DNA of 57,351 nucleotides from Microcaldota archaeon (GTDB taxonomy: Archaea; Micrarchaeota; Micrarchaeia; Micrarchaeales; CABMGC01): NCBI GenBank assembly GCA_021790305.1, contig JAJYED010000004.1:1-57351 (forward strand), in the 5' to 3' direction. The translations under genes and the position numbers were made by a program. Shown here in pieces: positions 33,703 to 57,347 of this stretch. The number at the start of each line of letters is the position of its first letter. Position 1 is the first letter of the stretch. The notes beneath the pieces were generated by a model. It ran no database searches, had not been told where the DNA came from, and saw nothing but the letters and a program-made list of their open reading frames with translations.

Positions 33703-33803
33703 TGGTGCAGGGAGAGAGATTTGTTCAGTGTTATTGAACTCTCGTAGGCCTAAGCCAACAGATCTTGAGTCTGTCGCGTTTGACCAGGCTCCGCCATCCC
33801 TGC
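33703..33803 (-). tRNA. tRNA-Leu (CAA) with 13-nt insertion/intron in the T-loop; 3' CCA encoded
   Basis: minus strand GCAGGGA TG GCGGAGC..GC G ACAGA CTCAAGA TCTGT ..long variable arm.. GAGAG TTCAATAACACTGAACAAAT CTCTC TCCCTGC ACCA. Confidence 0.88.
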
Positions 33804-36904: not shown

Positions 36905-37564
36905 TCAGCGTTTTTTGAGTACAGCGAATAGGTGCATCCTGTCGAAAGGCATAAGGTCCATTGACTCCACAACCTCGAATGTTCCGGATACCGCCTTTAG
37001 GAATTCCTTGTACACCACTTTCGGATTCTTTGATACGCTGATGCTCTGTGACTTTATTGCAACATATGCATAGCTTCCTTTTCCTAGGAACCTGCTGTTC
37101 TCGATAAGCATCTGCGCCTGATCCCTTGCGGCTATATCCTGATACAGCACGTCTGCAAGGCCCACTTCTTCAGCATACCTCTCAACGTTCCTTGCATTTT
37201 CCAGTATAGGCAGCATATTCTCCCGCTTTTCGCAGACCTTTATCAGATCTCGTACGCTTCTCTCAGATACCTCTACGCAGTAGAGCTCTCCTTCCATTGA
37301 TATTATGTCGCTTATATGGCTGCATGTTGTGCCTGTCGCTGCTCCCAGGTAAAGAACCTTGCTCCCCTTCTTTATCTGCATGTGCCTCATTCCTTTCAGA
37401 ATGGCAGCGGCAAGCTTTGATCTGTAGGGATTCCATAGCCTGTACTCTTTGCCATCCGCTTTAACAAGCTCTTCTCCGTATACCTTCTCTCCCTGTACAA
37501 GATTGACAGTTGCAAGCTTTCCATTCACCCTGAACACCCCGTCGAATACTTCCTTTGCAGTCAT
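36905..37564 (-). CDS. flpA: fibrillarin-like rRNA/tRNA 2'-O-methyltransferase
   Basis: EYRLWNPYRSKLAAAI, VLYLGAATGTTCSHISDII, VLYQDIAARDQAQML. Confidence 0.93.
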   Translation of the reverse strand: MTAKEVFDGVFRVNGKLATVNLVQGEKVYGEELVKADGKEYRLWNPYRSKLAAAILKGMRHMQIKKGSKVLYLGAATGTTCSHISDIISMEGELYCVEVSERSVRDLIKVCEKRENMLPILENARNVERYAEEVGLADVLYQDIAARDQAQMLIENSRFLGKGSYAYVAIKSQSISVSKNPKVVYKEFLKAVSGTFEVVESMDLMPFDRMHLFAVLKKR

Positions 37565-49127: not shown

Positions 49128-49267
49128 GGGGTTGTTGCGTAACTTGGCAGCGCGGCAGGCTCCAGATGTTTATAATCCAATGAGCCTTTCGGCGATGATG
49201 AGGATCTGGAAGTACCGAATAAATATGAAGTAACCTGCAAGTCGGGGTTCAAATCCCCGCAACCCCA
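49128..49267 (+). tRNA. tRNA-Trp (CCA) with ~67-nt intron at 37/38 (49166-49232)
   Basis: GGGGTTG / GCAGG CTCCAG[intron]A CCTGC / CGGGG TTCAAAT CCCCG / CAACCCC A. Confidence 0.92.
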
Positions 49268-57136: not shown

Positions 57137-57228
57137 GATAATACAGAGCGCAACTGGTTGCCTCGTTCTTACAGCAATTACACTGTTCTTCGCGATAAAG
57201 GATTTGAGATGGCGCGAGGCATGAGTTT
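57135..57228 (+). repeat. direct repeat copy 2 (internally deleted remnant of permease 3' end)
   Basis: 57135-57159 = 55803-55827; 57164-57228 = 55877-55941; 49 bp of copy 1 replaced by 4 bp. Confidence 0.92.
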
Positions 57229-57347
57229 GGCGGGGGGGAGATTTGAACACCCGATCTCTAGATTTCTAAGATCATAGCCGAAAGGCTCATTACTCATCAT
57301 GCTATGCATATGAGTCTAGCGCTCTAACCAGGCTGAGCTACCCCGCC
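57228..57347 (-). tRNA. tRNA-Met (CAT; elongator or Ile2 not resolved) with ~45-nt intron at 37/38 (57264-57308)
   Basis: minus strand GGCGGGG TA GCTCAGCCTGGTTAGAGC G CTAGA CTCATA[intron]A TCTAG AGATC GGGTG TTCAAAT CTCCC CCCCGCC A. Confidence 0.9.

Follow-up and report, generated by a model that had tools for sequence, protein, structure and literature searches.

The introns of tRNA-Met(CAU), tRNA-Trp(CCA) and tRNA-Ser(UGA) in Micrarchaeota are probably box C/D guides for 2'-O-methylation of the wobble nucleotide (position 34) of the tRNA that carries them. The window, as we call the whole 57,351-nucleotide stretch of DNA analyzed, contains two of these genes, and an earlier note had reported that their introns share a nearly identical 21-nt core. 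Both 21-mers were found as reported, at 49179-49199 in the tRNA-Trp intron and at 57271-57291 on the minus strand in the tRNA-Met intron, with one base differing between them. On sequence grounds, the reading that best fits the shared core is that of a D'-kink-turn-C' element, part of a box C/D 2'-O-methylation guide encoded by the intron. The features of the window are given below, the guide and box assignments being predicted.

36914-37558, minus strand: fibrillarin gene, a predicted methyltransferase (PF01269, E = 9.3e-77)
49128-49267, plus strand: intron-bearing tRNA-Trp(CCA) gene (Rfam tRNA, 46.8 bits; model R2, 178.3 bits)
49166-49232, plus strand: tRNA-Trp intron of 67 nt at position 37/38, with a one-base ambiguity at its ends (stem GCAGG/CCTGC)
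49180-49183, plus strand: Trp D' box AUGA (survey of 70 Trp introns)
49184-49193, plus strand: Trp kink-turn C-stem hairpin GCC-UUUC-GGC (D'-K-turn-C' upstream of the guide in 70/70)
49195-49201, plus strand: Trp C' box AUGAUGA (survey of 70 Trp introns)
49204-49210, plus strand: Trp guide AUCUGGA, in which G 49209 faces C34 (49162) (Trp intron comparison)
49215-49218, plus strand: Trp D box CCGA, at N+6 in the window copy (NNGA at N+5 in 31/48 genera)
49225-49231, plus strand: candidate Trp C box AUGAAGU, a short loop past the D box (sequence; an AUGAAG-type 3' end is common in other genera)
57229-57347, minus strand: intron-bearing tRNA-Met(CAU) gene of the elongator type (Rfam tRNA at 57228-57347, 54.8 bits; model R1, 150.9 bits)
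57264-57308, minus strand: tRNA-Met intron of 45 nt at position 37/38, with inferred ends within 1 nt (anticodon stem CTAGA/TCTAG closes around it)
57292-57300, minus strand: Met guide segment, in which G 57295 lies at N+5 and faces C34 (57312) (GAGU-NNN-GA spacing constant, 87/88 Met introns)
57287-57290, minus strand: Met D' box AUGA, consensus CUGA (GA invariant; CUGA in some outgroup families)
57277-57286, minus strand: Met kink-turn C-stem hairpin GCC-UUUC-GGC (compensatory pairs between genera)
57269-57275, minus strand: degenerate Met C' box AUGAUCU (NRUGA after the stem, 85/87)

Box C/D RNAs have the consensus boxes RUGAUGA (C) and CUGA (D), and the nucleotide that they target is set by a fixed distance from the D or D' box (the N+5 rule); standard archaeal C/D sRNAs carry both a C/D and a C'/D' motif, some 12 nt from each other. 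The arrangement GA-stem-NRUGA corresponds to the kink-turn core between D' and C' boxes. In the proposed mechanism, a guide segment beside one box would pair with the anticodon loop of the carrier tRNA, and L7Ae-Nop5-fibrillarin would 2'-O-methylate the wobble nucleotide thus selected, giving Cm34 in Met and Trp. The order of elements would be permuted in Met (guide, D', K-turn hairpin, C'), and tRNA-Ser(UGA), with the order as in Met, would select U34. We infer RNP binding and methylation; the guide could act either on the precursor to which it belongs or on a separate molecule. The fibrillarin gene is present in 21 of 21 genomes and Nop in 19 of 21, both misses being in incomplete genomes, and the source genome has two L7Ae-family genes. 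The kink-turn arrangement GA-stem-NRUGA was found in 85 of 87 Met introns, where nothing but a stem of 2 bp or more separates GA from NRUGA, and in 70 of 70 Trp introns; CUGA-linker-RUGATG was found in 27 of 27 Ser introns.

The Met set comprises 88 loci, one or few per genus, of which 87 were extracted by script and one (L312) was added by hand; the module-less L317 is counted as a miss. After the exon CUCAUA, the Met intron consists of a small hairpin NGC-NNN-GCN, then (U)(U)AUGAGU, three letters and GA, followed by a stem-loop, N-R-U-G-A and a tail mostly ending in (G/A)AG-AA. The AUGAGU segment is complementary to A31-U36 of its own tRNA, and the G facing C34 lies 5 nt upstream of the NNGA box. 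This spacing, GAGU-NNN-GA, is present in 87 of the 88 extracted introns from 59 genera. A full 5-bp guide at N+5 together with the K-turn occurs in 51 of 59 genera, where dinucleotide shuffles of the same introns lead to an expectation of 0.04, and ATGAG at N+5 occurs in 53 of 59 genera (1.8 expected). The D' box is usually degenerate (NNGA) rather than CUGA, and in outgroup families (loci L315, L316 and L319) the Met D' box can be the canonical CUGA; stems there can be longer. The third pair of the C-stem is a standard one in 39 of 40 genera and is of the types CG, AT, TA and GC, with 18.4 expected from shuffling. Counted from A31 on the spliced tRNA, the contiguous guide is 9 bp in 21 genera, 8 bp in 8 and 7 bp in 8; it is shorter in 22 of 59 (6 bp in 18 genera and 5 bp in 4). 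Guide position -8 is U in 41 of 59 genera and position -9 is U in 47 of 59, which fits A37 and A38 once the tRNA is spliced. In the genus of the window, position -8 is G, or A in one of its six genomes; this is a mismatch at 37, so that the window's own Met guide reaches only 6 bp. A rule that at least one of -8 and -9 must be U was dropped, with neither being U in 3 of 59 genera and 3.7 expected if the two were independent. No second C/D motif was found in the Met intron, which shows one D-C pair only. The initiator tRNA-Met (L008) shares the loop CUCAUAA matching the guide of the Met intron and is a possible further target in trans.

A search of 164 genomes of the order with a pattern of common stem letters, at up to 3 mismatches, revealed no intronless tRNA-Met; it gave just two places, both with the loop CTGATAA rather than CAT. 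The best matches to model R1 are weak (best E about 1e-14 or weaker) in 36 of the 164 genomes, which is compatible with incompleteness, divergence or a lost intron alike. The Met-intron pattern applied to one genome per species (84,980 species) gave 105 stretches, and among the 80 matches listed all are Micrarchaeota or members by title, save four titled Marsarchaeota; this pattern fixes part of the module, and no claim of conservation for the fixed letters draws on it.

Trp statistics refer to 70 chosen loci, including L167 and L192, which were retained though the script's guide TGGA differs from the choice by eye. In 70 of 70 introns D'-stem-C' lies upstream of AUCUGG or a variant of it complementary to the anticodon loop. 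The GA of the D box stands at N+5 relative to C34 in 31 of the 48 genera, and 17 of 48 are without NNGA there; the other offsets (-2, -1, +1, +2, +3 and +4) yield counts of 1, 1, 2, 1, 0 and 0. The window's own Trp D box misses N+5 by one base, which runs counter to a clean rule. Apart from the D'-C' pair, a second D box and a candidate second C box can be recognized in the Trp intron. In these introns the third intron-proximal letter (after GAT; 49168 in the window) and the letter before AUCUGG (49203) are the same purine, being G/G in 28 genera, A/A in 11, G/A in 2 and A/G in 0 (Fisher 2e-8, uncorrected for kinship). This pair switches within two genera; its letters are not complementary, and the partner was not found.

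The tRNA-Ser(UGA) introns are predicted to carry the same device in the Met-type order, selecting U34. The gene of the source genome (G000:C18; L054) has the exon CUUGAG, a short loop, CUCAAGAG-CUGA, a linker and AUGAUG. The Ser(UGA) pattern matches in 53 of 164 genomes, and 42 genomes have the string CTCAAGAGCTGA; the 26 such introns examined in full all belong to tRNA-Ser genes. Places that match the pattern with varied letters instead of CTCAAGAGCTGA may, among those left unexamined, be due to chance. Neither AG nor the first letter of CUGA nor the C box was fixed by the search pattern; the letters of the module that it did fix are excluded from claims of conservation. AG-CUGA and then RUGATG follow in 27 of 27 introns examined (the 26 and L373), with the guide at N+5 from the D box in all 27, a position for which the pattern selects. 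The exon targets of Met and Trp are invariant, so no signal of guide-target covariation is possible there; in Ser, L373 has A for G at exon position 37 and U for C in the guide, which amounts to one compensatory guide-target change (G37-C to A37-U). Only one D-C pair was seen in the Ser(UGA) introns, with no second.

Beyond Met, Trp and Ser(UGA), no guide layout was seen in the tRNA hits of the source genome or in 20 long tRNA hits chosen from four nearly complete genomes. Scanned for the motif, 1.24 Mb of DNA gave CAT 64 times, TGA 19 times, and CCA and GGG once each; the single GGG hit is taken for chance, and as the DNA was chosen for these tRNAs, the scan is no survey. With default settings ARAGORN finds neither the Met nor the Trp gene of the window; when introns are allowed, it calls the Met gene Ser(CGA), the Trp gene Arg(CCT) and the Ser(UGA) gene Ala; routine annotation may therefore hide these tRNA genes. 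Other introns were noted in passing: a tRNA-Leu(CAA) gene at 33706-33803 on the minus strand of the window has a probable non-canonical T-arm intron, and tRNA-Arg(UCU) (L056, G000:C12:10318) and tRNA-Ala(GGC) (L059, G000:C29:16483) have probable T-loop introns.

In the window, the two cores are the only matches to the 21-mer at up to 3 mismatches, where shuffles lead one to expect 0.01. The source genome as surveyed comprises 741,784 bases in 37 contigs and is 82% complete; it holds three exact matches, each within a tRNA intron: one in Trp, one in Met and one in a further copy of tRNA-Met, on contig C12. One tRNA-Met gene is found at two contig ends with different 3' flanks (57229-57347 of the window and L001), reflecting either two copies or an assembly break. 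At up to 3 mismatches the 21-mer occurs at 24 places in 15 of 60 genomes; 23 of the 24 were examined, of which 17 fall in introns of tRNA-Trp or tRNA-Met and 6 lie elsewhere. The nine places that mismatch at no more than one base are all in tRNA introns. The string thus passes the check set in the earlier note, which had named frequent occurrence outside tRNA introns, or absence from the orthologous introns of sister genomes, as counting against its proposal. That note had described a selected module, a K-turn with a UUUC-capped hairpin. The K-turn module is supported by the compensatory changes of the C-stem and by its position, which is the one needed for a box C/D guide, and GA-stem-NRUGA is the part of the core kept over the whole class. 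The UUUC cap is not conserved, as the loop varies even inside the genus of the window (UUUC, UUUA and UUUG). The remark that both host tRNAs begin their anticodon with C34 gains a meaning in that C34 is the predicted target, but it does not extend to the third host, tRNA-Ser(UGA), which has U34.

In the unspliced tRNA, a single local hairpin has the anticodon loop as one strand and the guide as the other. For the Met arm of the window, the predicted best fold contains the guide hairpin and a GAGCC stem. The first three intron positions show covariation with guide positions -12 to -10 and are fully paired to them in 44 of 59 genera (27.1 by shuffling); without the commonest pair, 9 of 24 are paired as against 3.9 expected. 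The splice motif uses the same exon letters, and the guide fold and the splice fold are therefore mutually exclusive. Compared with hand-drawn splice folds, the guide hairpin has -9.9 versus 0.4 kcal/mol for the Met type and -8.3 versus -6.9 kcal/mol for Ser; for the outgroup arm of G182 and the free Ser arm of the source genome, the best fold is not exactly the guide hairpin. Tentatively, the introns might serve as conformational switches through which splicing is tied to wobble methylation, a proposal that we consider doubtful as yet. The anticodon loop of the precursor would first snap onto the intron guide, giving a methylation-ready fold with the K-turn nearby, and the same exon and intron bases would then serve the bulge-helix-bulge cut by the splicing enzyme. 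Position 34 could thereby be methylated in cis ahead of splicing, amounting to a quality check within the intron.

The same hairpin is central to an unlikely alternative, according to which the K-turn is an L7Ae site that aids splicing or intron stability, the complementarity to the anticodon is merely that of a structural hairpin, and no methylation is guided. A precursor hairpin of anticodon loop and guide, with its covariation between intron positions 1-3 and guide positions -12 to -10, is expected with or without methylation, and the U at guide position -9 could also pair with A37 in this hairpin. However, such a hairpin leaves unexplained the constant register of five nucleotides to the D or D' box in three tRNAs with differing layouts, the canonical CUGA and RUGATG boxes in Ser, and the U at Met positions -8 and -9 (41 and 47 of 59 genera), which matches A37 and A38. 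A methylation guide remains our preferred reading of the introns.

For this reading, the near identity of the Met and Trp cores would reflect mainly shared K-turn constraints, along with a chance likeness of the free positions in one genus. The earlier note had suggested intron spread between tRNA genes, and one intron copying the other, by mobility or gene conversion, would also give a common core. In the genus of the window the two cores are 1-3 bases apart in 5 of 6 genomes, and the genes are neighbors, separated by some 8 kb in the window and by no more than about 11 kb in three relatives. Over 27 genera, however, core similarity within and between genomes is 5.65 versus 5.39 (permutation, p = 0.27), and p is 0.50 without the genus of the window; the flanks of the two introns are entirely different, and orthologous genes carry each module throughout the class or order. 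Spread is thus unsupported, and we regard copying as quite improbable for the common core, with local gene conversion being possible within the genus of the window, where the cores are nearly the same and the genes lie close together. That the string is a functionless chance similarity is hardly credible, given 0.01 matches expected in the window and a module with class-wide conservation and covariation. As a reading of the module, chance is already refuted; for the extra identity of the loop it is possible, as the free core positions could coincide in this genus; chance alone would give roughly 1 of 27 genera its own Trp as the best match, and this genus is one that has it.

Two elements of this picture are already known, namely the Trp guide and a C/D-like tRNA-Met intron in Nanoarchaeum. 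The archaeal tRNA-Trp intron is described as an established C/D guide of the sR50 type in Haloferax and Pyrococcus, directed at C34 of its own tRNA (PMC7994747, PMC4090602), and as acting in trans or intramolecularly (PMC7994747). U39 is the known second target of this type. The Micrarchaeota Trp introns resemble it in being tRNA-Trp introns with C/D boxes and a guide to their own C34, and differ in lacking the U39 target, in having one conserved guide and, in the genus of the window, in a D box shifted by one. Position 39 of the window tRNA-Trp is C (stem GCAGG/CCTGC), which removes the U39 target of the known guide; with the C34 guide present and the U39 half absent, the window intron is a reduced relative of the sR50 type and not a full member. 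For Nanoarchaeum equitans, a stable 66-nt RNA from the elongator tRNA-Met intron with box C/D elements has been reported, and the section of that paper on this RNA gives no target (PMC3491384). Compared by its description alone, it is likewise a C/D-type tRNA-Met intron of a DPANN archaeon, at 66 nt rather than the approximately 45 nt of the Micrarchaeota intron with its guide to C34 at N+5. Box C/D sRNAs in permuted order, with D ahead of C, are reported in the same paper for N. equitans; the Met and Ser introns share this order, but the N. equitans sRNAs have genes of their own and are not parts of tRNA introns. Free-standing C/D guides for position 34 of tRNA-Met are reported in Pyrococcus and predicted in Haloferax (PMC7994747, PMC2584109), addressing the same nucleotide from apart from the tRNA, whereas the Micrarchaeota guide lies within the intron of its own target. 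In humans, SNORD97/SCARNA97 is described as guiding Cm34 of elongator tRNA-Met (PMC6601510), which is also box C/D-guided but by separate eukaryotic RNAs acting in trans. Cm34 itself is reported in some archaeal tRNAs (PMC7668247). In searches of an open-access library we found no Met-intron guide with C34 as target, no Ser(UGA) intron guide and no Micrarchaeota tRNA-intron guide.

In reviews, the tRNA-Trp intron stands as the archaeal case in which an intron directs modification of the tRNA it comes from (PMC4090602, PMC11408192). Three tRNA families of one lineage with the same device, directed to the same nucleotide, would extend a trick firmly described for just one tRNA. The device leads to the prediction of Um34 in tRNA-Ser(UGA), and C34 is the suggested target for the tRNA-Met intron RNA of Nanoarchaeum. 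That three families share it suggests that intron retention for self-guided wobble methylation is a general strategy, and the device would give reduced genomes a selective reason to retain their tRNA introns.
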